In this document: piece after piece, positions 3,704-23,511 of the stretch
Numbering within the stretch: the first letter of the stretch is position 1
Layout: every line of letters starts with the position of its first letter
Assembly: GCF_003932895.1 (NCBI RefSeq)
Contig: NZ_RQYW01000002.1
Span: forward strand, 124,001 to 188,000
Length of the DNA stretch: 64,000 bases
Direction of reading: 5' to 3'
DNA from: Leptotrichia sp. OH3620_COT-345
Lineage (GTDB): Bacteria; Fusobacteriota; Fusobacteriia; Fusobacteriales; Leptotrichiaceae
The notes under the pieces: model-generated
The model's input: only the letters and a program-made list of their open reading frames with translations
Told to the model about the DNA's origin: nothing
Databases searched by the model: none
Made by a program: the position numbers and the translations under genes

Positions 3704-4996
3704 TCAATAATAAATGTTATGCAGAAAAATTACGACTGCAAGAACATCTGCAGAACCTCCGGGACTGATATTATTTTCAATACACCATTTTTCAAATTTT
3801 TCAAGTTTTTCCTTTTCTGATATACCTATTAAAGATTTCGTCCTTTTTTTGACTTCACTCAACATTTCTATCCCGTGTCGATGAACAATCGTACTGTCAT
3901 TTATAATATTCATCAGTTTTATGAGAGTCATTGAACAGACTGTATTTTTACTGTAACATTTGAGATTTTCATCATAAAAAGGCAATATATCATCAAAAAT
4001 GCCGGTCAGACCTTCTCTGACCTCTCCCCTTATTCCTGTAAAACCATATTTTACATATAATTTTTCACCATTTGTGAGATTTTCTTTATTTCCGATATTT
4101 TTAAAATCATCTAAAATATTTTTAGTAATTTTCCTTATCAACTCAGGAATTTTTTCTATATTTTTTCCTAAATAAAAATTTCTTGCTGTTGCCAGTACTG
4201 TTATTCCCATAAGAAATATAAGCCCTTTATGAGTATTTACATTTTTTGTAGCCCTCATCATGGAAATTTCAGCTTTTTTCCCGATTTCCCTTGCAATAGA
4301 AAATGCAGTATCGAGCTCTATATCAGAATACCCTATCCTTGTTATTTCATAAAAAGCTTTTTCTATGGCAAAGCCGCTCTCCAGAAAAGTATAAAAATTC
4401 ATGTCTTTGTGAGAACCTGTATTAACAGGTGACACAAGACCGAAAGACGGATAAGCGGAAACTTCATAAATAAGTCCTTCAAGTGCTGCCAATGAAAATT
4501 TGTGAGCTATGTAATTTCTGTATTTTTCTTCAAGAAAATTATAAAGCTCCTCATAACTGTGCTTCATACTTCTTACACAATTATAAGCCTTGTCATTACA
4601 AAGAAAACACTTCCTGAAAGAATTTCCGATATCTTTTCTTGAAAGTACATTTCCTTCGGGAGTATGAACATCTATGTCTGCACATCTTCCCAATTCATGA
4701 CTTTCTTCAAGAATAATCATAGATTTTTTTATATTATAGGCATTACCTTCCAATATATAAAAGAAAAATTTCCCTTCCTCATTTCTGAAGTTTTCTCTAA
4801 AAATTATATTTTTTTCAAATAATTTGTCAATTTCTTCAGAAATTGCATCTACTATATTATCTGCTAAAGGAAGATTCTTATTTTTTCCGGGAAAATTCGC
4901 CTTTAATACAACAAGAGTTTTTTTATATTTTTCAATTAACTTTTTCTGGTATTCCACTCTTTTTTCTCTATCATTTAAAAAATTTCCTATGTTCAT
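3704..4996 (-). CDS. citXG: CitX-CitG fusion: apo-citrate lyase phosphoribosyl-dephospho-CoA transferase / triphosphoribosyl-dephospho-CoA synthase
   Basis: Makes and attaches the prosthetic group of citrate lyase. Residues about 1-165 are CitX-like (GRCADIDVH, SRKDIG, RKCFLC); residues about 170-430 are CitG-like (GLVSPVNTGSHKDMN, NTHKGLIFLMG, GEVREG, SPGGSADVLAV). CitG makes triphosphoribosyl-dephospho-CoA from ATP and dephospho-CoA; CitX transfers it to the acyl carrier CitD. Such fusions are known in several bacteria. The start codon overlaps the citC stop (ATGA), implying translational coupling. The 430 aa length equals the sum of the two domains. The target CitD and the lyase subunits CitE and CitF are not in the window. 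Confidence 0.92.
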   Translation of the reverse strand: MNIGNFLNDREKRVEYQKKLIEKYKKTLVVLKANFPGKNKNLPLADNIVDAISEEIDKLFEKNIIFRENFRNEEGKFFFYILEGNAYNIKKSMIILEESHELGRCADIDVHTPEGNVLSRKDIGNSFRKCFLCNDKAYNCVRSMKHSYEELYNFLEEKYRNYIAHKFSLAALEGLIYEVSAYPSFGLVSPVNTGSHKDMNFYTFLESGFAIEKAFYEITRIGYSDIELDTAFSIAREIGKKAEISMMRATKNVNTHKGLIFLMGITVLATARNFYLGKNIEKIPELIRKITKNILDDFKNIGNKENLTNGEKLYVKYGFTGIRGEVREGLTGIFDDILPFYDENLKCYSKNTVCSMTLIKLMNIINDSTIVHRHGIEMLSEVKKRTKSLIGISEKEKLEKFEKWCIENNISPGGSADVLAVVIFLHNIYY

Positions 4997-6009
4997 TTTA
5001 ATTTACCTGAAATTTCTTTATTTTTAAGAGAATCCAGATATTCAAAAGTCGTATAAGGAACAATCTTTCTAATTTCTTCCATTTTTCCTTCCTTTAAAAG
5101 CTTTCTCACTGAAGAGGCGGAAATAATTTTTCCATCAATAGATTTACGTGGAATAATATTAACTTCAATTCCATATTTAGGTAAAATTTCTGAAATGATT
5201 CTATTATAAACTGATGTCACTTCATCAAAAGGTTCCTCCCCTAAATATCTGTGATTTATATTCAACCGTCTGCAAAATTTTGTTGCAATTATTTCAGAGT
5301 CAAGTTTTGCATATTCAGTGAGCATCGAATTTTTGTCTTTCAGAAAATAGGAAGGAAAGGTTGCTGAAGAAATTATATATTTCGTAGATGGAACTACTTT
5401 TACATTTTTAAGGTCTTCCGTCCCCTTTTTTACAAGTTGTATCCTCGTTTTAAAAGAAAATGTCGATTTATTTTCCTCCAGTACAAAAATAATAACTTCA
5501 TTATTATTTTTCGCGGCATTTTCAATAAGGTATCTGTGACCTAACGTAAAAGGATTACAGTTCATTACTATCATAGCCCTTTTATGTCTGATATCCAGAT
5601 TATTATTTTTTATAATGTTTGAAATTATCCCTTCGATATCCTCATTCCCCTGTTCTAACAAAATAACTTTATCCGTACATGCAACTTTTTTATATCCCAT
5701 GTCTTCAAAAATAAACTTATTTTCAATTTTAGTAAATATCATTGATGACAAGTATCCCTCTTCAACAAGCTTATTTCTTATTTCTGTTAGCAGGATATTA
5801 GATAGTCCTTTTCCCTGATGACTTTTATCCACTGCGAAATCTTTTATAATATTCCTGTCTTTAGAGACAGTAGCTATAATTTCTTCATTTTCTCTTATTA
5901 CTGCAGTGTAATCTACTGAACTGTCAAACTCCAGTTCAAATTTCTCTAAAAATTCTTTTAACTCCCTCAATTCAAAACTGTTTTTATAATCCAGCTTTGA
6001 TACATTCAT
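4993..6009 (-). CDS. citC: [citrate (pro-3S)-lyase] ligase
   Basis: Acetylates the thiol of the citrate lyase prosthetic group using acetate and ATP, activating the lyase. The 338 aa protein has an N-terminal GNAT-like domain (KSHQGKGLSNILLTEI, about residues 60-85) and a C-terminal nucleotidyltransferase fold with the HxGH-type motif NCNPFTLGHRYLIE (about residue 150) and ISASSVRKLL near the end, the usual CitC layout. An ATG start with GGGAGG 7-8 nt upstream is clear. It is the second gene of the operon, 26 nt after pckA, and overlaps citXG by 4 nt. Confidence 0.93.
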   Translation of the reverse strand: MNVSKLDYKNSFELRELKEFLEKFELEFDSSVDYTAVIRENEEIIATVSKDRNIIKDFAVDKSHQGKGLSNILLTEIRNKLVEEGYLSSMIFTKIENKFIFEDMGYKKVACTDKVILLEQGNEDIEGIISNIIKNNNLDIRHKRAMIVMNCNPFTLGHRYLIENAAKNNNEVIIFVLEENKSTFSFKTRIQLVKKGTEDLKNVKVVPSTKYIISSATFPSYFLKDKNSMLTEYAKLDSEIIATKFCRRLNINHRYLGEEPFDEVTSVYNRIISEILPKYGIEVNIIPRKSIDGKIISASSVRKLLKEGKMEEIRKIVPYTTFEYLDSLKNKEISGKLK

Positions 6010-6035: not shown

Positions 6036-7619
6036 CTAAGCTCTCGGTCCTGCATTTACGACATTTTCAGGCATATGAGGATATTTTTTTTCAAAATTTT
6101 CCTGAAACATTTTAGCCAATTTTTTTGCATAGACAATGTAAGCTTCCTTATTTTCCCAAGTATCGGCAGGGTTCATAATTTCACATGGAACATTTGGGCA
6201 AAATTGAGGAATATCCACATTGAAAATATCGTCATGTTTATATTCAACCGAATCAAGTTCGCCATTTAAAGCCGCTGTAACCATTGCACGAGTATATTTC
6301 AGTTCCATACGCTTCCCTATCCCGTAAGGTCCTCCTGACCATCCTGTATTTATGAGATACACTTTTGTATTATATTTTTCAATTTTTTCTCCAAACATTT
6401 TCGCATAAACTGATGGTTCCATAGGCATAAAAGGCTCTCCGAAGCAAGTGGAGAATGTTGGTTGAGGTTCTGTGACTCCACGCTCGGTACCTGCAAGTTT
6501 TGAAGTAAATCCTGTAATAAAATGATACATTGCCGCATCTTGATTCAGCCTTGAAATGGGAGGCAGTACACCGAAAGCATCTGCTGTAAGAAATATAACT
6601 ACAGAAGGTATTCCTCCTACTCCCGGGATTTGAGCATTTGTTATATAATTAATGGGATAACCTACACGGGTATTCTCAGTAAATGTTTTATCTTTAAAGT
6701 CCAATTCTCTTGTTTTCGGGTCCATTATGACATTTTCCACAAGACTTCCAAATTTTATTGCCCGATATATTTCAGGCTCATATTTTTCTTTCAGATTTAT
6801 ACACTTAGCATAACAACCCCCTTCAAAATTAAAAATTCCATGATTGGACCAGCCATGCTCATCATCACCTATTAATTTTCTATTAGGATCTGTAGACAAA
6901 GTCGTTTTTCCTGTACCTGAAAGTCCAAAAAAAACGGCAGTTTTGCCTGTAACCGGATCTATATTTGCGGAACAATGCATAGGAAGCACATCCATACTCG
7001 GCATTAAATAATTCATTACGCAAAATACACTTTTCTTTATTTCTCCCGAATATCTCGAACCGCATATTATCCCTATTTTCGCTTCATAATCAATGATGAT
7101 AGCAGCTTCTGAATGAGTTCCGTCTATTTTCGGATTACACTTAAATCCCGGCGCTGCAATAATAGTAAAATCAGGACTATGATAATTTGCAAGCTCTTCA
7201 GCCGAAGGTCTTATTAAAAGTTGATGAATAAACAAATTCTGACTGGCAAGCTCATTTATGATCCTGAACTTTTTTCTACACACGGGATCAGCTCCCGCTA
7301 TTCCGTCAAAAATAAAAATTTCCCTATTCTGAAAATAGGAAACCAGCTTCCCGTAAATAGCATTAAACTTTGACTTTTCAATAGGGCGGTTTACATTCCC
7401 CCATGCAATGGAGTCATGAATTCCCTGAGTGTCGACTATAAACTTATCCTCAGGAGAACGTCCGGTATATTTACCGGTTGTTACAACAAGTGCTCCTGTT
7501 TTTGACAGTTTGCCTTCTTCTTTCTGAACAGCAATTTCAATTAATTCTGTAGGGGATAAGTTACGGTGAATTTTCCCGGTGTTTATAATTCCCAATTTTT
7601 CAAGTCCGAATGTTCTCAT
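6036..7619 (-). CDS. pckA: phosphoenolpyruvate carboxykinase (ATP)
   Basis: Interconverts oxaloacetate + ATP and phosphoenolpyruvate + CO2 + ADP. The 527 aa length is normal for the ATP family. It carries the kinase-1a P-loop GLSGTGKTTLS, the kinase-2 region IGDDEHGW, RYSGEIKKSVF with its substrate Lys, and TGRSPEDKFIV near the N-terminus. The ATG has GGAGGT 7 nt upstream. It is the first gene of the citrate operon, so oxaloacetate released by citrate lyase could go either to pyruvate via Oad or to PEP here, giving PEP for the PTS and biosynthesis. Direction in vivo is an inference. Confidence 0.96.
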   Translation of the reverse strand: MRTFGLEKLGIINTGKIHRNLSPTELIEIAVQKEEGKLSKTGALVVTTGKYTGRSPEDKFIVDTQGIHDSIAWGNVNRPIEKSKFNAIYGKLVSYFQNREIFIFDGIAGADPVCRKKFRIINELASQNLFIHQLLIRPSAEELANYHSPDFTIIAAPGFKCNPKIDGTHSEAAIIIDYEAKIGIICGSRYSGEIKKSVFCVMNYLMPSMDVLPMHCSANIDPVTGKTAVFFGLSGTGKTTLSTDPNRKLIGDDEHGWSNHGIFNFEGGCYAKCINLKEKYEPEIYRAIKFGSLVENVIMDPKTRELDFKDKTFTENTRVGYPINYITNAQIPGVGGIPSVVIFLTADAFGVLPPISRLNQDAAMYHFITGFTSKLAGTERGVTEPQPTFSTCFGEPFMPMEPSVYAKMFGEKIEKYNTKVYLINTGWSGGPYGIGKRMELKYTRAMVTAALNGELDSVEYKHDDIFNVDIPQFCPNVPCEIMNPADTWENKEAYIVYAKKLAKMFQENFEKKYPHMPENVVNAGPRA

Positions 7620-9197: not shown

Positions 9198-11603
9198 TTA
9201 TAATTTCTGCTCAGTTCTTGAAATAATATCATTCTGTGTCGTTTTATCCAATGTGACAAATTGTGCACAATATCCTGCGACTCTCACTATAATATCTCTA
9301 TGTTTTTCTGGCTCACATTGGGCAGCTTTCAATGTTTCTCCTGAAATAATATTGAATTGTATATGCCAACCTTTAGATGCTATAAATGATTTTATAACAT
9401 CTACAAATTTCTCAAACTGTTCAGGGCTTCTCACAAGGTCAGGAGAATATTTCTGATTCAATAGCTGTCCTCCTGTAATCATAAGAGTAGGAAGTTTGTT
9501 TACCGAATTAAGTACTGCAGTAGGTCCGTTTACATCTGTTCCCTGTGTAGGTGAACCTCCTTCAGCAGCCGGAGTATAAGCTCGTCTTCCATCAGGAGTA
9601 GCACCGCTTACAGTTCCCATAGGCACATTTGAAGATATTCCGGAAGTTGATACTCCATAGCCTCCATTTTTAGGGCCTCTTCCATATCTTGTATTATGAT
9701 ATTTCTGTATTTCATTTATATATGACCAATAAATATTTTCTGCAAATTCATCTACTTCATCAATATCATTTCCGTATTTAGGCACTTCAAGTAATATTTT
9801 ACGTATTCTTTCTCCTTCTTCTCCTGCATAGTCATTTTGTAATGCATTATATACTTCTTCCTTTGTCAGCACTTTTCCGTCATATACTAACGTTTTCAAA
9901 GCATACAAAGAGTTTGCAGCATTAGCTATTCCAACTTGAAGTCCTGAAACGATATCATAAACCGCTCCTCCTTCTTTTGCTGTCAATCCTCTTTCTATAC
10001 AGTTATCTACAAGACTTGATAACAATATGTCCGGGAATTCCTCTAAATGAGTGTCTGCAAGAGTGTCAAGAGCAACTGTCAGTTTTGTATAATGTTTTAT
10101 ATGATTTTCCCATGCTCTCCATAAATCATCATAAGTTTCAAAATCAGTTAATTTACCTTGACCTTTTAACATCTGAAGTCCTGTTCTATTGTCATATCCG
10201 TCATTTAAAACAAGTTCGGTAGCTTTTACAAGGTTTAAAAATGTCATTCCTGTACATCTGTATCCCCATTTGCCCGGTACGGCAACTTCCACACAACCTA
10301 CCATAGTATAGTCATAAGCATCCTTAAAATCTACACCTTTATTTAAAAGAGCAGGTATTATTATTTCATCAGTATGCATAGCAGGCATTCCGTACCCTGT
10401 AGCGGCAACAGAAGCGCATTCTCTTATAAATCTTTCAGGAGAATTGGCATGGTATCTCACTGCCAGATTAGGCTGTGTCAATTTATTTTCTCCTACGCTT
10501 TCCAATATTAAATAACTCAGTTCATTTGTGCAGTCTTTCCCGTTAGCCTTTGATCCTCCCAAAGTTACATTCTGATAAGTAGGATAACCTGCACCGTAAC
10601 CTGAGTGGGAAGTGGATCTCACTTTTATTACCGAATACAGTTTTACCCAAAGGCACTGTAACAGCTCTTTTGCAAAATCTCTTTCCACATTTCCATCAAT
10701 TATATCCTGTTTATACAACGGATACAAATACTGATCCACTCTTCCCAATGAAGCTGAGTGTCCGTTACTTTCTATCTGTATCACAAGATGAATAAACCAT
10801 ATTGCCTGTACTCCTTCCCAAAATGTGTCTGCAGGATTTTCAGGAACTTTCAGACAGTTTTCATGTATTTGAAGCAATTCTTTTTTTCTTGTTTCGTCTT
10901 TTTCCGATTGAGCAAGTTTCAGTGCCAGATCGGCATATCTATGGGCAAAGTTTATAACTGCTTCCGCTACAATTTCCACCGATTTCAGAAAATCTACTTT
11001 ATTGTATCCTCCGTATACTGTTATATCTACCTTTTCCCTTGCTTCCTTAGCTTCTTCTATTACACCTCTTAACCCTTTGTTCAAAACTTTTTCAAAAGAC
11101 GGAACTATATGACCGTCACCTGATGTCATGTTCCCTTCTCCATGGATTATTTTTACAATTCCCGCTTCTTTTATTTCTTGAGGCATTTGTGCAAAAGCTC
11201 TGTCTTTTAAGGTTTTCCCTCTCCACCATTCGCATATTTCAATCATTTCAGGTATTTCTTCTTCAGGAACACGGAATTTATCCCCTTCTCTTGAATCAAA
11301 ATTACCTTTTTCCTTAAGTTCATCAACAATCCAGTCTACTGCATATTCCGGAAAGAAAGGAGCAGTTCTTTCATCTACAGACTGGTTTCCTGCAATAAGT
11401 TCTCCATCTTTTATATATATTGTCATATTTTCAAGAATTTCCTTTACTGCATAGGCTCTCACAAGATATTTGGATTTTCCTTCATGCTCTTTGTAAGCTT
11501 TTGTAAGCAGTCTTCCCCTTTCTACACTAACTCCCGGAAACTTGGACAGTGCCGATTCTCTAAGTTTTTTTACTCTTTCACTTTTCAAAATATACTCTTT
11601 CAT
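9198..11603 (-). CDS. glycyl radical enzyme, dehydratase/C-O lyase type (YbiW/PflD-like)
   Basis: Oxygen-sensitive radical enzyme of about 801 aa, close in size to E. coli YbiW. The glycyl radical loop RVAGYCAQF is near the C-terminus (Gly about 777) and the active-site MVGCVEVAVPGK holds one Cys (about 437) followed by Glu two residues on. True pyruvate formate-lyase has adjacent Cys-Cys; GC-x-E is typical of C-O cleaving members such as glycerol dehydratase, so the usual label formate acetyltransferase would mislead. The ATG at 11603 has GGAGG 8 nt upstream; a TTG 15 nt earlier overlaps that SD and is unlikely. It follows its activase gene in one operon. With the Fsa, GldA and PTS genes nearby, I infer it opens a 1,5-anhydrohexitol-6-phosphate; which epimer is not readable. 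Confidence 0.88.
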   Translation of the reverse strand: MKEYILKSERVKKLRESALSKFPGVSVERGRLLTKAYKEHEGKSKYLVRAYAVKEILENMTIYIKDGELIAGNQSVDERTAPFFPEYAVDWIVDELKEKGNFDSREGDKFRVPEEEIPEMIEICEWWRGKTLKDRAFAQMPQEIKEAGIVKIIHGEGNMTSGDGHIVPSFEKVLNKGLRGVIEEAKEAREKVDITVYGGYNKVDFLKSVEIVAEAVINFAHRYADLALKLAQSEKDETRKKELLQIHENCLKVPENPADTFWEGVQAIWFIHLVIQIESNGHSASLGRVDQYLYPLYKQDIIDGNVERDFAKELLQCLWVKLYSVIKVRSTSHSGYGAGYPTYQNVTLGGSKANGKDCTNELSYLILESVGENKLTQPNLAVRYHANSPERFIRECASVAATGYGMPAMHTDEIIIPALLNKGVDFKDAYDYTMVGCVEVAVPGKWGYRCTGMTFLNLVKATELVLNDGYDNRTGLQMLKGQGKLTDFETYDDLWRAWENHIKHYTKLTVALDTLADTHLEEFPDILLSSLVDNCIERGLTAKEGGAVYDIVSGLQVGIANAANSLYALKTLVYDGKVLTKEEVYNALQNDYAGEEGERIRKILLEVPKYGNDIDEVDEFAENIYWSYINEIQKYHNTRYGRGPKNGGYGVSTSGISSNVPMGTVSGATPDGRRAYTPAAEGGSPTQGTDVNGPTAVLNSVNKLPTLMITGGQLLNQKYSPDLVRSPEQFEKFVDVIKSFIASKGWHIQFNIISGETLKAAQCEPEKHRDIIVRVAGYCAQFVTLDKTTQNDIISRTEQKL

Positions 11604-11691
11604 AGTTTTTTCCTCCAATATATTTTATTTTCATTTTTTTTGTAATTTTCTTATAACTCATATATATTCATTTTTTACTGACAAATTTATT

Positions 11692-12483
11692 TTATTGATT
11701 TATTTTTGCCCTTACTCCTATTTCTTTCATGATTTCCACAGCTTCTTCCAGCTCTTCTTTTGTATGTTTTACTAAAGTCGGCATAGGATAAGGTCTTCTG
11801 AGTTTCCTATATTTTTCAAGTCCCATAGTATGATATGGCAATATGTCCACATCCAATAAATTTACTTTTTTCAGAAACTTTGCAGTTTCAGCTATATTTT
11901 CCTTATCATCATTCACTCCTTTTATAAAAGGAAATCTCATTATTATATTTTTATGCCATTTTGAAAGCCTTTCAAGATTTTCCAATATTACTTTATTTGA
12001 AACAGCAGTATATTGTTTATGCTTTTCACTATTCATATGTTTTATATCAAACAAAACCGTATCTGTAAGTTTTGCCAGACTTTCAAGTTCTTCATAATTG
12101 CCGAATCCTGTAGTTTCAATAGCTGTTCCTATATATTCTTCTTTAAGTTTTTCAAATAATTTTATTGCAAACTTTGCATTTACAAGAATTTCCCCTCCGC
12201 TTAAAGTGACCCCTCCTCCTGATTTCCTATAAAATTTCTCATCTTTCATAACTTCTTTAAATACTTCATTTAATGTCATTTTTTTTGCTACTTTAGGCAG
12301 TTCTCCCGTAATAGGACAGATAGCCCCATAATCCCAGTAAACTTCATTTTCAGTTTTTTGAGTTTCAGGATTCGAACACCATAAACATCTTAGCGGACAC
12401 CCTTTCAGATATACTACTGTCCTTATACCGGGACCATCAAATGTTGCTCCTCTTTCTATTCCGGTAACAAGTGCTTCTTCCAT
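11692..12483 (-). CDS. glycyl radical enzyme activating enzyme (radical SAM), short form
   Basis: Uses SAM and a [4Fe-4S] cluster to place the radical on the partner enzyme's glycine. The 263 aa protein has the cluster motif CPLRCLWC (Cys 29, 33, 36), DGPGIRT before it, and GGGVTLSGGE about residue 90. Between the first two motifs there is a single Cys (YGAICPITG), so the ferredoxin-like double cluster insert usual in activases of dehydratase-type enzymes is missing; in length it resembles PflA. It is first in an operon, 88 nt before the ATG of the glycyl radical gene. The SD (GGGAGAG) is weak and distant, and the start at 12483 is supported mainly by the conserved N-terminus. Confidence 0.9.
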   Translation of the reverse strand: MEEALVTGIERGATFDGPGIRTVVYLKGCPLRCLWCSNPETQKTENEVYWDYGAICPITGELPKVAKKMTLNEVFKEVMKDEKFYRKSGGGVTLSGGEILVNAKFAIKLFEKLKEEYIGTAIETTGFGNYEELESLAKLTDTVLFDIKHMNSEKHKQYTAVSNKVILENLERLSKWHKNIIMRFPFIKGVNDDKENIAETAKFLKKVNLLDVDILPYHTMGLEKYRKLRRPYPMPTLVKHTKEELEEAVEIMKEIGVRAKINQ

Positions 12484-12524
12484 AAACTGTCTTCTCTCTC
12501 CCTTAATACAAAAATATTTTTAAG

Positions 12525-12548
12525 TTTCGTTTTGTTTCGATATATTTC
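12525..12548. promoter_or_regulatory. probable DeoR-type operator of the activase/GRE operon
   Basis: TTTC occurs at 12525, 12535 and 12545, exactly 10 bp apart (TTTCG, TTTCG, TTTCA). The array starts directly downstream of the -10 element of the leftward promoter, where a repressor would block initiation. The same triplet is found at 12638-12662 (other strand) and 19650-19674. Confidence 0.7.
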
Positions 12549-12577
12549 ATATTACACTATTTATCATTTATTGTCAA
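12549..12577 (-). promoter_or_regulatory. promoter of the activase/GRE operon
   Basis: On the minus strand TTGACA (12577-12572), 17 nt, TAATAT (12554-12549): perfect -35, near-consensus -10, about 66 nt before the activase ATG. Confidence 0.8.
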
Positions 12578-12597
12578 CAAAAATTTTAAAAATTTTA

Positions 12598-12626
12598 TAG
12601 ACTTCTTAAAGTAAATATGCTAATAT
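12598..12626 (+). promoter_or_regulatory. candidate promoter of the Fsa-like aldolase gene
   Basis: TAGACT (12598-12603), 17 nt, TAATAT (12621-12626). The -35 is weak, but the position relative to the operator at 12638-12662 mirrors the divergent promoter. Confidence 0.5.
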
Positions 12627-12637
12627 TAAAATATAAC

Positions 12638-12662
12638 CAAAATAAAACGAAATATATCGAAA
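12638..12662. promoter_or_regulatory. probable DeoR-type operator of the aldolase gene
   Basis: Read on the minus strand TTTCG (12662-12658), TTTCG (12652-12648) and TTTTG (12642-12638) recur every 10 bp, the inverse of the array at 12525-12548. TTTCGATATATTTC (12535-12548) reappears here inverted at 12649-12662. It lies just downstream of the plus-strand -10. Confidence 0.68.
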
Positions 12663-12700
12663 TAGAAACGTTTTATTTTGAAACAATTTTAAAATTAAAG

Positions 12701-12747
12701 AAAGGAGCGGTAACACTCTTTACAGAAGTTACCGGATAAATTTTATG
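12701..12747 (+). promoter_or_regulatory. ribosome binding site separated from the aldolase ATG by a stem-loop
   Basis: AAAGGAG (12701-12707) is followed directly by CGGTAAC (12708-12714), a 13-nt loop, GTTACCG (12728-12734), then 10 nt and the ATG (12745). Unfolded, the SD is 37 nt from the start; folded, about 10. No nearer SD or alternative in-frame start exists. Confidence 0.6.
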
Positions 12748-13461
12748 GAATATTTTTTAGATACTGCAAATTTAGACGACATTAAAAAAATTAATGATAT
12801 TTTCCCTTTAACAGGAGTAACTACCAACCCTTCAATCATTGCAAAAGAAAAAAGAGACTTTAAAGAAATCATAAATGACATTTACAATATTATAGGAAAA
12901 GACAAAATAGTACATGCTCAGGCTGTAGGATATACCGCCGATATTATAATTAAAGAAGTAAATTTATTAAGAGACACTTTCGGAGAAAATTTTTATACTA
13001 AGATTCCCGTGACTGCTGAAGGAATAAAAGCTATGAAAATACTTGCAAAAGACGGACACAAAATAACTGCCACAGGAATTCTTTCTTCTCAACAAATCAT
13101 AATGGCGGCAGAAGCAGGTGCGGAATATATGGCACCTTATATAAACAGATCCGATAACATAGGAGAAAGCGGAATAGAAATAGTTAAAGATGCTTTTACG
13201 ATACTTGAAACTGTTAAAAAAACCGATGAGGAATGTCTGAAAAGATATAAAAGAATTTTTGAACCGAAAATTCTCGGAGCTTCCTTTAAAAATGTAAGAC
13301 AGGTCCATGAAACAATGCTTGCCGGTTCAAAATCGGTTACTATAGCTCCTGACGTTTTTGAAAGGCTTATATATCATCCTTATACAGATTGGAGTATGGA
13401 TACATTTAACTCCGACTGGGAAAAAGCATACGGAAATAAAACCCTTCTGGATTTATTATAA
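12745..13461 (+). CDS. fructose-6-phosphate aldolase-like (Fsa/TalC) class I aldolase
   Basis: Small transaldolase-family aldolase, 238 aa against 220 for E. coli FsaA. It has the Schiff-base Lys in FYTKIPVTAEG (Lys86), TTNPS near residue 26, Gln59 (HAQAV; Gln59 is typical of Fsa rather than transaldolase), APYINR and LGASFKN. Fsa enzymes cleave fructose-6-phosphate or, as reported for FsaA/FsaB, 1-deoxyfructose-6-phosphate to glyceraldehyde-3-phosphate and hydroxyacetone. It is divergent from the GRE operon and shares its operator motif. An ordinary transaldolase is unlikely given the length and Gln59. It is followed by its own terminator. Confidence 0.9.
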   Translation: MEYFLDTANLDDIKKINDIFPLTGVTTNPSIIAKEKRDFKEIINDIYNIIGKDKIVHAQAVGYTADIIIKEVNLLRDTFGENFYTKIPVTAEGIKAMKILAKDGHKITATGILSSQQIIMAAEAGAEYMAPYINRSDNIGESGIEIVKDAFTILETVKKTDEECLKRYKRIFEPKILGASFKNVRQVHETMLAGSKSVTIAPDVFERLIYHPYTDWSMDTFNSDWEKAYGNKTLLDLL

Positions 13462-13480
13462 GTTAAAGATAACAGATTCT

Positions 13481-13523
13481 GAAGACAAAAAATTTTAAAA
13501 TTGAAAATTTTATTATTGTCTTC
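13481..13523 (+). terminator. hairpin after the aldolase gene
   Basis: GAAGACAA (13481-13488) pairs with TTGTCTTC (13516-13523), with an inner AAAATTTT-rich pairing. It begins 20 nt past the stop codon; the tail is only weakly T-rich. Confidence 0.55.
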
Positions 13524-13630
13524 ATTTATCAATAAATCATATATCAGAAATTTTTTATATAATTCAACAAAACACAATAAAATAAATATATAGAAATCAT
13601 ATTTTTAATACTTTAAAAATCTTCATCCCC

Positions 13631-13658
13631 TTGTATTTTTGAAAAATCGGGATATTAT
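13631..13658 (+). promoter_or_regulatory. candidate promoter of the CstA-family gene
   Basis: TTGTAT (13631-13636), 16 nt, TATTAT (13653-13658), 45 nt before the ATG at 13703. No TTTC triplet array is seen here, so this gene may not share the DeoR operator. Confidence 0.45.
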
Positions 13659-13702
13659 TATATTAAAGGAGTAAAAAACTTTTTTAAATGGAGGTAATAA
13701 AT

Positions 13703-15163
13703 ATGATTTCTTTTATTTTGTCAATCATCGCTCTTATATTAGGTTATGTGTTCTACGGTAAACTTGTAGAAAAGATTTTCGGGATTAATCCCCAAAGACC
13801 TACTCCGGCGATTGAATTTAAAGATGGTGTCGATTATGTAGAATTAAGCACACCTAAATCTTTCCTTATACAGTTTCTCAACATTGCAGGAACAGGTCCG
13901 ATATTTGGAGCGATTGCAGGAGCTTTATGGGGACCTGCGGCTTTTCTATGGATTGTTTTCGGTTGTATTTTCGGTGGAGCCGTACATGATTTTTTGATAG
14001 GAATGCTCTCATTGAGGTCAAAAGGAAGCAACATCGGTGAAATAGTCGGAGAAAACCTCGGAAAAACAATGCAGCAAATTATGCGTGTTTTTTCAATTGT
14101 ATTATTGCTTCTTGTAGGAGTAGTGTTTGTAAAATCTCCTGCCGATATACTGTCCAATTTGACAAAAATTGATGTAATGATATTTACAATAGCTATTATT
14201 GTATATTACATACTTGCAACCGTTCTTCCTATAGACAAAATTATAGCTAAAATATATCCTTTATTCGGATTCGCCTTATTGTTCATGGCTATTGGTATCG
14301 GTGGTATGCTTATATACGGAAGTTTAAAAGGAAATTTTGTCATACCTGAAATTACTGACATTTTTAAAGGAAATCCACATCCTAAAGGTACATCTTTATT
14401 CCCTTATTTATTCATTTCCATTGCATGCGGTGCAGTAAGTGGATTTCATGCTACACAAACACCTATGATAGCTCGTTGTATAAAAAATGAAACAGAAGCA
14501 AGAAAAGTATTTTATGGAGCTATGATTGCTGAAGGTGTTGTCGCTCTTATATGGGCTGCCGCTGCAATGACTGTTTTCGGGGGAATTAAAGAACTGGCAG
14601 CTGTCGGTTCTCCTGCAGTAGTTGTAAATAAAGCTTCCAGTCAGCTTTTAGGTATCATCGGTGCTTTCCTTGCCATACTGGGTGTTGTTGCCTGCCCTAT
14701 AACTTCAGGAGATACTGCATTCAGGGGAGCAAGGCTAATAATTGCTGAAATTTTCAATATAAAGCAGGCACCTGTTAAAAATCGTTTCTTAGTAGCTATA
14801 CCCTTATTTGCAGCAGGAATATATCTGACTACTATTGATTTCAATATTATATGGAGATATTTCGCATGGGCTAACCAGACATTGGCAACTGTTGCATTAT
14901 GGACAGCAACAGTCTGGCTTGTAAAAAAAGGAAAATCTTTCTGGATAGCTTTACTCCCATCCATGTTTATGACAATGGTAGTTACTTCATATATCGTTAT
15001 TGCCCCTGAAGGATTTGTAAGATTTTTCAAAAATGTTCCTGTCCATACAATAGAAATGTACGGATTTATAATAGCGGGTATTGTTACGATAATTTGCACT
15101 GCTCTTCTGTTTATGTATAAAAATAAAATTTCAAATATATCAGTTTCAGGAGTTAAAGCATAA
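13703..15163 (+). CDS. CstA-family carbon starvation transporter (short form)
   Basis: Inner-membrane transporter of about 486 aa with many hydrophobic segments. Family features include FGAIAGALWGPAAFLWI, GAVHDFLIGMLSLR, SGFHATQTP and ACPITSGDTAFRGAR. CstA/BtsT proteins take up pyruvate or peptides; the E. coli versions are about 700 aa, while this is a known shorter type. The ATG at 13703 with GGAGG 8 nt upstream is preferred to the ATG at 13688, which overlaps that SD. It lies between the aldolase gene and the convergent deoR-gldA-PTS operon. Its substrate is unknown; a link to the anhydrosugar pathway is only positional. Confidence 0.88.
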   Translation: MISFILSIIALILGYVFYGKLVEKIFGINPQRPTPAIEFKDGVDYVELSTPKSFLIQFLNIAGTGPIFGAIAGALWGPAAFLWIVFGCIFGGAVHDFLIGMLSLRSKGSNIGEIVGENLGKTMQQIMRVFSIVLLLLVGVVFVKSPADILSNLTKIDVMIFTIAIIVYYILATVLPIDKIIAKIYPLFGFALLFMAIGIGGMLIYGSLKGNFVIPEITDIFKGNPHPKGTSLFPYLFISIACGAVSGFHATQTPMIARCIKNETEARKVFYGAMIAEGVVALIWAAAAMTVFGGIKELAAVGSPAVVVNKASSQLLGIIGAFLAILGVVACPITSGDTAFRGARLIIAEIFNIKQAPVKNRFLVAIPLFAAGIYLTTIDFNIIWRYFAWANQTLATVALWTATVWLVKKGKSFWIALLPSMFMTMVVTSYIVIAPEGFVRFFKNVPVHTIEMYGFIIAGIVTIICTALLFMYKNKISNISVSGVKA

Positions 15164-15306
15164 TAAAAAATAATTTTTTACTCTCAGTTTTAGAAATACT
15201 TGAAATTATTCATTCATTTTAAAATCTTATATCAAAAAATTTTCTCAAAAAATATGAATTATAACTATTCAAAAAAACAACAAACTTTATATCCGGAAAT
15301 TGGAAT

Positions 15307-15330
15307 GTGAGGATGCATCGTCATCCTCAC
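15307..15330. repeat. stem-loop between convergent genes
   Basis: GTGAGGATG (15307-15315), 6-nt loop, CATCCTCAC (15322-15330): a perfect 9-bp stem in the gap between the CstA and DeoR genes. No T run follows on either strand, so it may be a structural or REP-like element rather than a classical terminator. Confidence 0.5.
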
Positions 15331-15380
15331 AAAAAAGTTTGAAAATATTTCACTAAGTTTTTTAAAAAATAATACAAAAA

Positions 15381-15406
15381 TATGAGGGCATATCACTACC
15401 CTCATA
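15381..15406. terminator. TATGAGGG/CCCTCATA hairpin between convergent genes
   Basis: TATGAGGG (15381-15388), 10-nt loop, CCCTCATA (15399-15406), then AATTTTATTT. It lies 42 nt past the deoR stop and on the plus strand downstream of the CstA gene. The stem resembles those at 36163 and 60166. Confidence 0.6.
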
Positions 15407-15447
15407 AATTTTATTTAAAAATTGTAGTAACTTTCAAAATATCGACT

Positions 15448-16197
15448 TTATATACATTCTATTCCAATTTTTTCATATTCTTCCAAAATTTCCCTTGATA
15501 TTCTTTTATCAGTTACAATAGTTGTAATATCTTTTATATCACATACTTTATAAGGCATGATTACATTAAACTTTTCAGGTATGACAAGAGTTACCGTTCT
15601 TCCCGAAGATTTTATAAACTGACGTTTCACTCCAATTTCTTCTTCGTAAGGACTTGTAATCCCCATTATAGGATGTACTGCATAAGCTCCCATAAAACAA
15701 ATATCGGGATAATATTCCTTTATCTGATTTTCAGCCAAGTATCCTACATTTGTCATAATTTTTTTAAATAAATTTCCTCCTATCATTATGACATCTATAT
15801 TTTTGTGATTACAAAGTTCATTGGCAATAGACAGACTGTTAGTAAGCACAGTCAGACTGAGATTAACAGGAATTGCTCTTGCTAACTGTAAATTCGTTGT
15901 ACTTCCGTCAATGGCAATTACTTGATTTTCTTTCATAAGATTTACTGCTTTTAATGCCAATTCGTACTTTAACTCAGGTTCAAAATTTTCCCTTTCAGAG
16001 TAATTTATTACATATCTGTTTAAAGGAAGAGCTCCTCCGAAGACTCTTTTGAGTACTCCCTTTTTGTCCATTTCCATAAGATCTCTTCTTATAGTATCTT
16101 CAGAAACTGATAAATCAAGAGCCAATTCATTCACTATTACTTTCCCTTTTGTATTCAGTTTCATAAGTATCAAATCTTGTCGTTCCTTTTTCAGCAT
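15448..16197 (-). CDS. DeoR/GlpR-family transcriptional repressor
   Basis: 249 aa regulator with an N-terminal DeoR winged helix (ERQDLILMKLNTKGK, VSEDTIRRDLMEMDKKG, GGALPL; residues 1-60) and a C-terminal DeoRC sugar-phosphate sensor (AIDGSTTNLQLAR, LTNSLSIANEL, IGGNL). Such proteins are normally released from DNA by a phosphorylated sugar. It is the third gene of the PTS-gldA-deoR operon (39 nt after gldA). The 10-bp-spaced TTTC arrays at three promoters of this locus are its likely operators, including its own operon promoter (autoregulation). The inducer is inferred to be a pathway intermediate. Confidence 0.92.
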   Translation of the reverse strand: MLKKERQDLILMKLNTKGKVIVNELALDLSVSEDTIRRDLMEMDKKGVLKRVFGGALPLNRYVINYSERENFEPELKYELALKAVNLMKENQVIAIDGSTTNLQLARAIPVNLSLTVLTNSLSIANELCNHKNIDVIMIGGNLFKKIMTNVGYLAENQIKEYYPDICFMGAYAVHPIMGITSPYEEEIGVKRQFIKSSGRTVTLVIPEKFNVIMPYKVCDIKDITTIVTDKRISREILEEYEKIGIECI

Positions 16198-16236
16198 TTT
16201 ATCATTCCCTGTTTAAAATTTTTTACAAAAGCTGTA

Positions 16237-17322
16237 TCATTTTCCCAGTTTATCCGCAACCAGTATTGCAGCATAAACATCATCAGCTGTAACTTTAAAA
16301 GGCATATTATGGATTGTTTCACCTTCTACCGTACTTGCTTGTGCCACTTTATAAAGTCTTTCTTTTGATACACTTCCCAGTCCGAGTTGCTCCAATGTAG
16401 TAGGCAGCCCTATGCTTTTACACAGTTCCACCACTTCATTTATTTCTTCAAGAGGTCTATTTTCAAGGACCATCTGAGTTATAGTTCCAAAAGCTACTTT
16501 TTCTCCATGATACATATGATGTCCCTCTTCAAGTATTGTAAGACCGTTATGTATTGCATGGGCAGCTGCAAGTCCTCCACTTTCAAATCCTATACCGCTT
16601 AAATATGTATTAGCTTCTATTATGTTTTCCACTGCTTTTGAACACACTTTGTTTTCCACTGCTATTTTAGCTTTAAGACCGTCTTCAAACAATGTATTCA
16701 GGCATAATTCAGCTATAGCAAGAGCCGCTTTTGTAGCTTTACCTCCTGCAATTGATGTAGCATTGGAATCTACACAAGCCTTTGCCTCAAAATAAGTGGA
16801 AAGAGCATCTCCAATCCCTGCTACAAGAAGTCTTACGGGAGCATTTACAATAATGTCCGTATCCATTATAACCATATCAGGATTGGATCTGAGGAAAAGA
16901 TATTTTTCAAATTCTCCCTCAGGAGTATATACAACTGATAATGCACTGCACGGTGCGTCTGTAGAAGCTATAGTAGGAACTATAAGCACAGGAATATTTT
17001 CATAATAAGCAATGGCTTTTGCTGCATCAAGAGTTTTACCTCCTCCTATTCCCAGAAGAACATCACACTTCTTAGTTTTAAGTATCTCAATGTTTCTGTC
17101 AATTTCTTTTTGAGAACATTCTCCACCGAATACCTCCATATGATAAGGTATGTTTTCTTTCTCAAAGCTTTCAGCTATTTTTTGCTTAAAATTGTCAAAT
17201 ATAAACTTATCTGCAAGTATATAAGCAGAGCTGTTTCCCTTTACCTTGTAGTATTTTGCCAGATTGGCAATTTCATTTGCACCTTGTATATATTTTGTAG
17301 GTGCATTGATAATTTTGCTCAT
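16237..17322 (-). CDS. gldA: glycerol dehydrogenase-type NAD-dependent alcohol dehydrogenase
   Basis: Iron/zinc-type dehydrogenase of about 361 aa. It has the NAD site GIGGGKTLDAAK, the STDAPCSA loop, and metal ligands in GIGDALSTYFEA (Asp), AAHAIHNG and MYHGEKVAFG (His). GldA oxidises glycerol to dihydroxyacetone and reduces hydroxyacetone to 1,2-propanediol; the latter fits the aldolase product in this locus. The ATG at 17322 has GGGGAG 7 nt upstream; the upstream ATG at 17337 overlaps that SD. It lies between the PTS gene and deoR in the same operon, as gldA lies next to fsaB and pflD in E. coli. Confidence 0.92.
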   Translation of the reverse strand: MSKIINAPTKYIQGANEIANLAKYYKVKGNSSAYILADKFIFDNFKQKIAESFEKENIPYHMEVFGGECSQKEIDRNIEILKTKKCDVLLGIGGGKTLDAAKAIAYYENIPVLIVPTIASTDAPCSALSVVYTPEGEFEKYLFLRSNPDMVIMDTDIIVNAPVRLLVAGIGDALSTYFEAKACVDSNATSIAGGKATKAALAIAELCLNTLFEDGLKAKIAVENKVCSKAVENIIEANTYLSGIGFESGGLAAAHAIHNGLTILEEGHHMYHGEKVAFGTITQMVLENRPLEEINEVVELCKSIGLPTTLEQLGLGSVSKERLYKVAQASTVEGETIHNMPFKVTADDVYAAILVADKLGK

Positions 17323-17396
17323 AAAATCACTCCCCATCTTGTTATTTTTTTATTTAATCTCTGATTAATTATACCTTTTATTTACAAATTTATCAA

Positions 17397-19604
17397 TTAT
17401 TTTTTTGTTACAAAAATTATTGCTTCTTCTCCCTGTTCGACCATTCCTTCCTTATCGACCTGTATACCGTATTTGGATTTATTCACATTTAAAAACGTTA
17501 CAGGAGAAACTAAGGAGTATCCGGCTTCCATAATAGCTTTTCTATCTATTTCAGCTATTTTTTCTCCCTGTTTTACAGAATCTCCTAATTTTTTAAGCAC
17601 TTTTATACCTTTACCATTTAGACTTACTGTTCCCAGTCCGATATGAATTAATATTTTATGTCCGTAATTATCTTCTAAAATAAAGGCATGCTCGGTTGAA
17701 TAAATATTTATTATTTTTCCGTCTATCGGAGCAATTATTTCGTCACTTTCAATTTCCACTGCAAAACCGTCACCTAAAACTTTAGCACTGAATATTTTAT
17801 CTTGAATATTTTCAATATCTATTATTCTTCCTTTAAACGGAGAAATCACTTTATTAATTTCTTCAAGAGAATCTTTATTTTCCACTGTACAGTCTTCACA
17901 TAATCCTAAAACATTTATATTCATATTTTTAGATGTCTCTTTATCTGCAAAAGATGACTCCATTCCATGTTCTTTTATTTTTTCTATATATTCTTCCAGA
18001 TTACTTTTTATTACTGAAACTGTAGGACCGTATACTACCTGTATTCCATTTCCTTTTTTTATAACCCCCATTGCTCCGGTCTGTTTCAATAATGAGTCGT
18101 TTATCAAATCAAGATTATTCGCTTTTATTCTAAGCCTTGTTGCACAGCATGTCAAATCACTGAAGTTATCCAATCCTCCCAGACCCTCTATAATAGACTG
18201 AGAAATTGTATCTTCCATAACCATGCCTTTTTTTCTTTCTTCTCTCATTGCATTATAGTCATTTTTTGTATAAAGTTTCGTTTCCACATCTTCATCTTCT
18301 CTTCCCGGTGTTTTTAAATCCCATTTCAGTATGACAAATCTAAAAAACATATAATACAATACAAAATAAAGTACAAACACAGGTAGCAACATAACCCAAT
18401 TCGTTTTTGCATTTCCCTGTAACAATCCATACAATGTAAAATCTATAAGGCCACAGGAAAAAGTCGTACCAATGGCTATATTCAGCACACTCATTAACAC
18501 AAAGGAAATTCCTGCAAAAATACAATGTACTACAAATACTATAGGAGCAACAAATAAAAATGTAAATTCAATAGGTTCTGTTATTCCCGTAAGAAAACTT
18601 GTCAATGCAGCTGACAGAAGTAATCCTCCCACTACTTTTTTCTTGGACGGTTTTGCACAATGATACATTGCCAAAGCCGCTCCCGGTAATCCCGCCATCA
18701 TAAATGAATATTTACCTGTCATAAATTTTGCAGCTTCTATACTGAAACGTGTAGTATTTTTAGATGCCAACTCCGCAAAAAAGATATTCTGTGCTCCCTG
18801 AATCAACTGACCGTCTACCATCATACTTCCTCCAAGACCTGTCTGCCAGAATGGAATATACCATATATGATGAAGCCCGAAAGGTATGAGTATTCTTTCC
18901 ATAAATCCGAAAATAAATATTCCTATATCTCCTGATCCGGTAACAACTCTTCCTATGGAAAATATCCCCTGTTGGATAAACGGCCATACAAGAAAAGCTA
19001 TAAATCCGATCCCGATATATGCAAAAGTACACACAATAGGCACAAATCTCACTCCTGCAAAAAATGAAACCGCCGCAGGTAATTTTATTTTGTAAAACCT
19101 GTTATGAAGTGCAGCTACTCCCAATCCTACAACAATCCCTCCAAACACTCCCATTTCCAATGTCTGTATTCCTAAAACCATACTTACAGCTCCGCTCAGA
19201 ACTCTTTCAGCTACCTGACCGTCTGCTGTAATAGTTCCATTAAAAATAAGTAAATTTTTTATTGTAACATGCATTATTATAAATGACAGGGCAGCTGAAA
19301 GTACCGCTACTCCTCTTTCTTTTTTTGACATTCCGAATGCAATTGCCATAGCAAATATTAAAGGTAAATTTGCAAATATTGCACCTCCTACTCCGCTCAT
19401 TATAGTTAAAACGTAACTTAACGGTGTCCCCGGAGCAAGCAACCACTCCAGATTATATGATGCTATAGTTTTTGGATTGGTAAATGAAGCTCCTAATCCA
19501 AGTAATAATCCCGCAACAGGCAAAATAGATACCGGCAGGAAAAACGACCTTCCTATACTTTGTAATGTTGAAAAAACGTGGTTTTCCTTTTTAATTTTTT
19601 CCAT
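17397..19604 (-). CDS. PTS system, glucose-family EIICBA permease
   Basis: Imports and phosphorylates a hexose-like sugar at C6. Residues about 1-435 are a glucose-superfamily IIC membrane domain (ERILIPFGLHHIWYIPF, GITEPIEFTFLF); about 465-545 IIB with phospho-Cys 487 (LTCCATRLRI); about 590-735 IIA with His 654 (ILIHIGLGTV) and the second active-site His (TEHAFIL). All phosphotransfer residues are present. The ATG at 19604 follows GGAGG by 5 nt; an ATG 12 nt upstream overlaps the SD. It is first in the operon with gldA and deoR. Glucose, maltose or GlcNAc systems look alike; the operon partners suggest 1,5-anhydroglucitol or -mannitol, which is an inference. Confidence 0.9.
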   Translation of the reverse strand: MEKIKKENHVFSTLQSIGRSFFLPVSILPVAGLLLGLGASFTNPKTIASYNLEWLLAPGTPLSYVLTIMSGVGGAIFANLPLIFAMAIAFGMSKKERGVAVLSAALSFIIMHVTIKNLLIFNGTITADGQVAERVLSGAVSMVLGIQTLEMGVFGGIVVGLGVAALHNRFYKIKLPAAVSFFAGVRFVPIVCTFAYIGIGFIAFLVWPFIQQGIFSIGRVVTGSGDIGIFIFGFMERILIPFGLHHIWYIPFWQTGLGGSMMVDGQLIQGAQNIFFAELASKNTTRFSIEAAKFMTGKYSFMMAGLPGAALAMYHCAKPSKKKVVGGLLLSAALTSFLTGITEPIEFTFLFVAPIVFVVHCIFAGISFVLMSVLNIAIGTTFSCGLIDFTLYGLLQGNAKTNWVMLLPVFVLYFVLYYMFFRFVILKWDLKTPGREDEDVETKLYTKNDYNAMREERKKGMVMEDTISQSIIEGLGGLDNFSDLTCCATRLRIKANNLDLINDSLLKQTGAMGVIKKGNGIQVVYGPTVSVIKSNLEEYIEKIKEHGMESSFADKETSKNMNINVLGLCEDCTVENKDSLEEINKVISPFKGRIIDIENIQDKIFSAKVLGDGFAVEIESDEIIAPIDGKIINIYSTEHAFILEDNYGHKILIHIGLGTVSLNGKGIKVLKKLGDSVKQGEKIAEIDRKAIMEAGYSLVSPVTFLNVNKSKYGIQVDKEGMVEQGEEAIIFVTKK

Positions 19605-19649: not shown

Positions 19650-19674
19650 TTTCGATTAGTTTCTTTTTATTTCA
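19650..19674. promoter_or_regulatory. probable DeoR-type operator of the PTS operon
   Basis: TTTC at 19650, 19660 and 19670, 10 bp apart (TTTCG, TTTCT, TTTCA), in the same orientation relative to the gene as at the activase promoter and also directly downstream of the -10. Confidence 0.7.
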
Positions 19675-22503: not shown

Positions 22504-23511
22504 CTATTTCGCTATTTCAACAAAGTATTTTAATGTTCTTACTAATTGAGCAGTGTAAGACATTTCATTGTCATACCATGAAACTGTTTTAACTAATTGC
22601 TGATCTCCACTTTCAATAACTTTTGTCTGAGTTGCATCAAACAATGAACCGAAATGAATTCCAACTATATCTGAAGATACAAGTTCTTCTTCAGTATATC
22701 CGAATGATTCATTTGAAGCTTCTTTCATAGCTGCATTAATTTCATCTTTAGTAACTTTTTTACCTAAAACAGTTACTAATTCTGTTAATGATCCAGTAGG
22801 TACAGGTACTCTTTGAGCTGCTCCGTCAAGTTTTCCTGCTAATTCCGGTATTACAAGTCCTATAGCTTTTGCTGCTCCTGTAGTATTAGGAACTATATTT
22901 GCTGCCGCCGCTCTTGCTCTTCTGAAATCATTTTTTCTGTGTGGAGCATCAAGTGTATTCTGATCTCCTGTATAAGCGTGGATAGTAGTCATTGACCCTC
23001 CAACTATTCCAAATTTATCATTTAATACTTTAGCCATCGGTGCAAGACAGTTAGTCGTACATGAAGCTGCTGACAGTACCGTTTCCGTTCCGTCTAAAAT
23101 AGTGTGGTTTACATTAAATACAACTGTTTTCATTTCTCCTGAACCAGGTGCCGATATAACTACTTTTTTAGCTCCTGCTTTAATATGTAATTCCGCTTTT
23201 TCTTTAGAAGTGAAGAATCCTGTACATTCTAATACTACATCTACTCCTAATTCTCCCCATGGTAATTGAGCCGGATCTGCATTTGCAAAAGTTTTGATTT
23301 CTTTTCCGTTTACAACGAAAGCCCCTTCTTTTACTTGAATTTCCCCATTAAATCTTCCTTGAGTCGTATCATATTTGAATAAATGTGCAAGCATTGCAGT
23401 ATCTGTCAAATCATTAATTGCGACTACATCAAATTCAGGATTATCAGCCATTAATCTCAATGCTAATCTACCTATTCTCCCAAATCCGTTAATTGCTACT
23501 TTAACTGCCAT
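22504..23511 (-). CDS. gap: glyceraldehyde-3-phosphate dehydrogenase, type I
   Basis: Central glycolytic enzyme oxidising glyceraldehyde-3-phosphate to 1,3-bisphosphoglycerate with NAD+. The 335 aa sequence has the Rossmann start [15 protein letters not shown], the catalytic [10 protein letters not shown] (Cys about 151), [12 protein letters not shown] and the final [25 protein letters not shown] and ATG are clear. It is a single-gene unit with its own promoter and terminator. It would also consume the glyceraldehyde-3-phosphate made by the aldolase at 12745. Confidence 0.98.

Follow-up and report, generated by a model that had tools for sequence, protein, structure and literature searches.

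The window, which is the whole stretch of 64,000 nucleotides that was analysed, comes from contig C2 in the draft assembly (2.5 Mb) of a Leptotrichiaceae genome. Its genes between positions 9198 and 19616 fall into three runs. PTS-gldA-deoR and activase-GRE are both encoded on the minus strand; fsa-cstA is on the plus strand, and its fsa gene diverges from the activase gene. The features of this locus, in window coordinates, are:

9198..11603, minus strand: YbiW-type glycyl radical enzyme (GRE), 801 amino acids, the proposed 1,5-anhydrohexitol-6-phosphate ring-opening lyase
11692..12483, minus strand: radical SAM GRE-activating enzyme (activase), 263 amino acids
12525..12548, plus strand: operator-like triple TTTC repeat (period 10 bp) in the gap between activase and fsa, on the upstream side of the activase gene
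12639..12662, minus strand: mirrored near-copy of the TTTC repeat, TTTCGATATATTTCGTTTTATTTT, upstream of fsa
12745..13461, plus strand: Fsa-type aldolase, 238 amino acids
13688..15163, plus strand: CstA-family transporter, downstream of fsa
15448..16197, minus strand: DeoR-family regulator
16237..17337, minus strand: GldA-type dehydrogenase, proposed to convert hydroxyacetone to 1,2-propanediol
17397..19604 (start at 19604 or 19616), minus strand: glucose-family PTS IICBA, proposed to serve anhydrohexitol uptake and 6-phosphorylation
19650..19673, plus strand: operator-like triple TTTC repeat, preceding the PTS-gldA-deoR unit

All six proteins that the sequence-only reading had placed in this span are found there and were identified by NCBIfam/Pfam, each of the identities of activase, FSA aldolase, DeoR, GldA and PTS IICBA being confirmed with both; that reading had omitted the CstA-family gene. 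The GRE gene starts with an ATG at 11603, with GGAGG upstream, and ends at 9198.

The GRE contains the thiyl loop GCVE within the CxE motif MVGCVEVA, the glycyl radical loop RVAGY within RVAGYCAQF, and the active-site His in GDGH; a GC-x-E site in place of the Cys-Cys of PFL, as had been claimed from the letters, is thus borne out. In a sequence search the best solved-structure matches are YbiW chains (759-761 bits), compared with 621 bits for glycerol dehydratase, 584 for propanediol dehydratase and 498 for PflD, and the identity is 46% to YbiW and 37% to PflD. The YbiW matches include 8id7, the title of which describes YbiW complexed with 1,5-anhydroglucitol-6-phosphate; the title of 8id0 describes Streptococcus PflD bound to 1,5-anhydromannitol-6-phosphate. 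A fold search with the predicted structure also returned YbiW enzymes as the top two matches. Because the active-site loops of this model (pLDDT 74 overall) are poor and of low confidence, what it confirms is limited to the nearest relatives and does not extend to the pocket. The only full-length NCBIfam model that the GRE passes above cut-off is TIGR01774, "formate C-acetyltransferase/glycerol dehydratase family glycyl radical enzyme", which fits the earlier expectation that automatic annotation hides the key enzyme.

In a tree of 55 GRE sequences, the window GRE falls in a clade of 22 (support 100/100) that consists of enzymes from Leptotrichiaceae, Clostridium/Eubacterium and Propionispora. 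Its sister clade (joint support 95/91) unites E. coli YbiW with enzymes from spirochaetes and from genome G001, and PflD, the diol dehydratases, HypD and sulfopropanediol dehydratase lie outside the joint clade (the HypD and HpfG references were checked by NCBIfam). Clustering with another characterised class, which the sequence-only reading had named as the finding that would speak against it, was not obtained: the GRE groups with YbiW, and the AU test rejects a tree that forces it together with the glycerol/propanediol dehydratases (p-AU 2.4e-5). HypD and sulfopropanediol dehydratase are ruled out as identities by the tree and by NCBIfam. A PflD-type identity is rejected as well, considering the other clade, the 37% identity, and the absence of both segments, NQTDKGQGH and YGLHDIA, that PflD-type enzymes carry in place of the segments described next.

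The window GRE and YbiW have in common EGNMTSGD-x-H around the active-site His and GKWGYRCTG after the GCVE/GCIE thiyl site. Asn156, Asp447 and Tyr640 of glycerol dehydratase, which we take to be pocket positions, align with Gly, Gly and Ser in the window GRE, as they do in YbiW. On the other hand, 17 fixed differences separate the window clade (22 sequences) from the YbiW clade (5 sequences), and some of them are at pocket positions. Two of these, YbiW Ser338 to Gly and Leu343 to Thr, align with HypD Ser334 and Asp339, which are in substrate contact or catalytically essential in HypD (PMC7077986), and further fixed differences are located in the beta-8 strand region, YbiW 658-663. The expectation that the YbiW/PflD pocket is conserved is borne out in part: the signature segments EGNMTSGDxH and GKWGYRCTG are retained, but several pocket-strand positions differ. 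The residues indicate that the catalytic type of YbiW is retained and do not prove the identity of the substrate; because pocket conservation is only partial, the anhydrohexitol may be the gluco form or another.

Aligned with FsaA and FsaB, the aldolase shows the Gln, Lys and Tyr residues typical of FSA; of these, Gln and Tyr distinguish FSA from transaldolase. It is the sole TAL/FSA-family gene of the genome, and with 200 bits it falls short of the 246 bits set as curated cut-off for the fructose-6-phosphate aldolase equivalog. Among 33 genomes of the family, full-length FSA is present in exactly 22, and these are the genomes with a YbiW-type or PflD-type GRE (YbiW-type in 19; PflD-type in 10, three of which are without the YbiW type); in the other 11 no full-length FSA homologue was found, just one 71-residue fragment. 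Such an exact match would arise by chance about once in 190 million if the genomes were independent, which they are not. The pattern also holds within genus g6, where 10 of 13 genomes have both and 3 of 13 have neither, and genomes with both GRE loci can have two FSA copies, one per locus. GRE, activase and FSA are kept together in Leptotrichia, Sebaldella and most Clostridium loci.

Full-length orthologues of the PTS IICBA (76-77% identity) adjoin the GRE in six genomes (G021, G005, G006, G008, G013 and G015). In G001 a 50% orthologue adjoins the YbiW-clade GRE, and in the PTS tree it is the sister of the window PTS group (93/95). No full-length orthologue of the window PTS was found in genomes without the GRE. 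In the Sebaldella group (g9), genomes G024 and G026 have GldA, FSA, a PtsG-like IICB, activase and GRE in one locus. Some Leptotrichia genomes with the GRE have neither PTS nor GldA beside it, and in the Leptotrichia genomes without an adjacent PTS the GRE, activase and FSA genes remain together. Among the neighbours checked in the Clostridium loci there is no PTS sugar transporter gene, and a ptsI-like enzyme I gene lies upstream in two. The linkage to the GRE in several genera argues for uptake with phosphorylation as the probable role of the PTS, and its sugar specificity is predicted. The GldA-type dehydrogenase is 57% identical to E. coli GldA, is present in a single copy in the genome, and is found within the locus in the window genome, in L006 and in Sebaldella. 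The CstA-family gene beside fsa recurs in genus g4 (L006/L064) and is absent from the G021 locus; its part in the pathway is uncertain.

Two E. coli systems can be compared directly. With ybiW-ybiY-fsaA (1,5-anhydroglucitol-6-phosphate; 8id7, 8yjn) the window locus shares the joint GRE clade and the signature segments, as well as the adjacent activase gene and the divergent Fsa aldolase gene. It differs in that its GRE, 46% identical, belongs to a sister subclade with the 17 fixed differences, and in that it has a glucose-family PTS, GldA and DeoR, none of which surround ybiW in E. coli. With frwCB-pflDC plus fsaB-gldA (1,5-anhydromannitol-6-phosphate; 8id0, 8yjo) it shares the combination of PTS, GRE, activase, Fsa and GldA in one locus, but the GRE is only 37% identical, of another clade and with other signatures, and the window PTS is of the glucose family. 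A true PflD counterpart is located elsewhere in the same genome, on contig C6. This other GRE of the class scores 1300 bits against the PflD equivalog model, above its cut-off of 1109, shares 61% identity with PflD and has both NQTDKGQGH and YGLHDIA. Its locus (L062:6516-9704) consists of GRE, activase and a divergent DeoR gene, with no FSA or PTS gene nearby, whereas relatives have FSA and PTS-like genes there: in L085, L086, L087 and L103 the PflD-type GRE is flanked by PTS-like genes, a DeoR gene, activase and Fsa aldolase. The three flanking genes are read, from their sizes and N-termini only, as putative fructose-type PTS A, B and C genes. The locus of these relatives is organised on the same principle as E. 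coli frwCB-pflDC together with fsaB and gldA.

The activase lacks the usual auxiliary 4Fe-4S ferredoxin-like insert, which is a further difference from the E. coli ybiW-ybiY-fsaA system. When the window gene (11692-12483) was compared with those of L007, L048, L054, L056 and L010, the auxiliary cysteine region was found to be lost or degenerate in the window genus, in genus g4 and in most aligned Leptotrichia loci. Most of it is retained in one Leptotrichia (L054) and in Sebaldella, and Clostridium has it in full. The comparison suggests a stepwise loss of this region.

A shared operator-like motif had also been proposed, and it is real: the window has three copies of the pattern TTTC-N6-TTTC-N6-TTTC where 0.16 would be expected, and no shuffle out of 100 reached three. 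Positions 12525-12548 and 19650-19673 hold two of these copies. Genome-wide the pattern occurs at 31 places, versus 4 for a reversed control; it is therefore not unique, and the operator argument is based on position and conservation. The repeat recurs upstream of activase in seven Leptotrichia loci and, as near-copies, in Sebaldella, and in G021, which is of the same genus, it is upstream of both units. In some Leptotrichia the repeat is present while the orthologous DeoR gene beside it is absent, and a different DeoR gene is near FSA. DeoR-type control through these repeats is predicted, with the DeoR protein of the locus as one candidate for binding them.

Taken from the observed gene identities, clade, signature residues, linkage, co-occurrence and conserved repeats, the most favoured reading is that the locus is a YbiW-type "radical glycolysis" locus with 1,5-anhydroglucitol as the likely substrate. 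The YbiW clade, the gene neighbourhood, the PTS linkage and the FSA co-occurrence support the anhydrohexitol radical-glycolysis assignment made by the sequence-only reading; a YbiW-type anhydrohexitol-6-phosphate pathway is well supported, and 1,5-anhydroglucitol itself is a probable substrate. That one genome has both GRE types agrees with a split between gluco and manno epimers, as a review describes it for YbiW and PflD (PMC12441222), and the PflD-type counterpart leaves the gluco epimer as the natural role that the YbiW-type enzyme would have. The biochemical steps and the substrate are transferred by analogy from E. coli YbiW and PflD. The same review gives the reactions of these two enzymes, names PTS phosphorylation as the first step of both pathways, and reports the chain in E. 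coli from the PTS to 1-deoxyfructose-6-phosphate (PMC12441222). In the window locus, the PTS would import a 1,5-anhydrohexitol, most probably 1,5-anhydroglucitol, as the 6-phosphate, and the activase would install the glycyl radical on the GRE. Following general GRE eliminase chemistry, the thiyl radical on the Cys of GCVE would abstract H from C2 and the CxE glutamate would deprotonate the C2 hydroxyl, so that the C1-O5 bond is cleaved and 1-deoxyfructose-6-phosphate results. In the published pathway this compound is reportedly cleaved by Fsa, followed by GldA reduction to 1,2-propanediol. Here, the Fsa-type aldolase would release glyceraldehyde-3-phosphate and hydroxyacetone, and GldA would reduce the latter to 1,2-propanediol with re-oxidation of NADH.

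Three other readings can be weighed against this one. The pathway type could be the same and the substrate another, if the Leptotrichiaceae/Clostridium GRE clade opened a different PTS-borne anhydrohexitol-phosphate or a close analogue. The 17 fixed differences, several of them in pocket strands, speak for this, as does the AU test, in which a position of the window clade nearer to Sebaldella GREs linked to NagA/NagB, or to DeoC and man/sor-type PTS genes, than to YbiW gives p-AU 0.105. However, the catalytic and signature segments are YbiW-like, the PTS beside the YbiW-clade GRE of G001 is the sister of the window PTS, and an Fsa-type aldolase fits a fructo-configured product. A different substrate is thus unlikely, though it deserves some consideration; by the same estimate there is a small chance that this sister clade of YbiW has an undescribed specificity, for another PTS-delivered anhydrohexitol phosphate or analogue, and that its product would still be a 1-deoxyketose phosphate cleavable by Fsa.

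A glycerol/propanediol dehydratase operon, in which the GRE would dehydrate a small diol and GldA would act in the same small-polyol metabolism, is very improbable. The window GRE does share the eliminase fold and the CxE motif with the B12-independent dehydratases (1r8w, 5i2g) and scores above the cut-off of the mixed family model in which glycerol dehydratase is included, and glycerol and propanediol are substrates of GldA-type enzymes. Nevertheless, it belongs to a separate clade, the grouping with 1r8w/5i2a is rejected by the AU test, the aligned pocket residues differ and are those of YbiW, and nothing in this reading would explain why a hexose PTS and an Fsa aldolase are linked to it. 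It is hardly conceivable that the aldolase is a housekeeping, TalC-like transaldolase with an accidental position beside the GRE, and the locus not one pathway. Its status as the only TAL/FSA-family gene and its score under the equivalog cut-off would agree with such a role, but FSA accompanies the YbiW- or PflD-type GRE in 22 of 22 genomes and has no full-length homologue in the other 11, the FSA-type Gln and Tyr are kept, and two copies are possible where both GRE loci occur, one at each. Given the co-occurrence with the GRE types across the 33 family genomes, a housekeeping transaldolase role for FSA is rejected.

Under the YbiW-type reading with 1,5-anhydroglucitol, oral and other fusobacteria would have a radical anhydrosugar pathway that comes with a PTS, a regulator and conserved operator-like repeats of its own. 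It is well supported that the fusobacterial locus is a further case of a pathway already reported in E. coli and not a new kind of system. The family appears to have two parallel loci, one with a YbiW-type GRE and a glucose-type PTS and the other with a PflD-type GRE and putative PTS A, B and C genes, with an Fsa aldolase central to each. The analysis also reveals a divergent sister clade of YbiW, the substrate of which is directly testable. 1,5-Anhydroglucitol occurs as a metabolite in humans, and two forms of neutropenia have its 6-phosphate as the toxic compound (PMC12441222); therefore there is practical value in knowing which bacteria can degrade it.

Several neighbouring and related loci were also noted. 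In one genome of the Sebaldella group, a GRE 42% identical to that of the window directly follows NagA and NagB genes (L060:6403-12800). Near it are activase, DeoR and sor/man-type PTS genes, and the locus may serve to process an amino-sugar derivative by way of a GRE. In the same genome, a single run (L061:3006-11800) consists of man/sor-type PTS IIA-IIB-IIC-IID, a DeoC-type aldolase, DeoR, activase and another such GRE, which suggests a related pathway with a different aldolase. In Clostridium loci L013, L015 and L016, genes for a dihydroxy-acid/sugar-acid dehydratase, KDPG aldolase and KDG kinase are beside the GRE-activase-FSA run. In the window, a putative citrate lyase ligase (CitC)-like gene (4993-6009) and a putative ATP-type PEP carboxykinase gene (6036-7619) adjoin the locus, and a GAPDH gene (22504-23511) is located about 3 kb past the PTS; in L006 a GAPDH gene adjoins the cstA-fsa-activase-GRE run.
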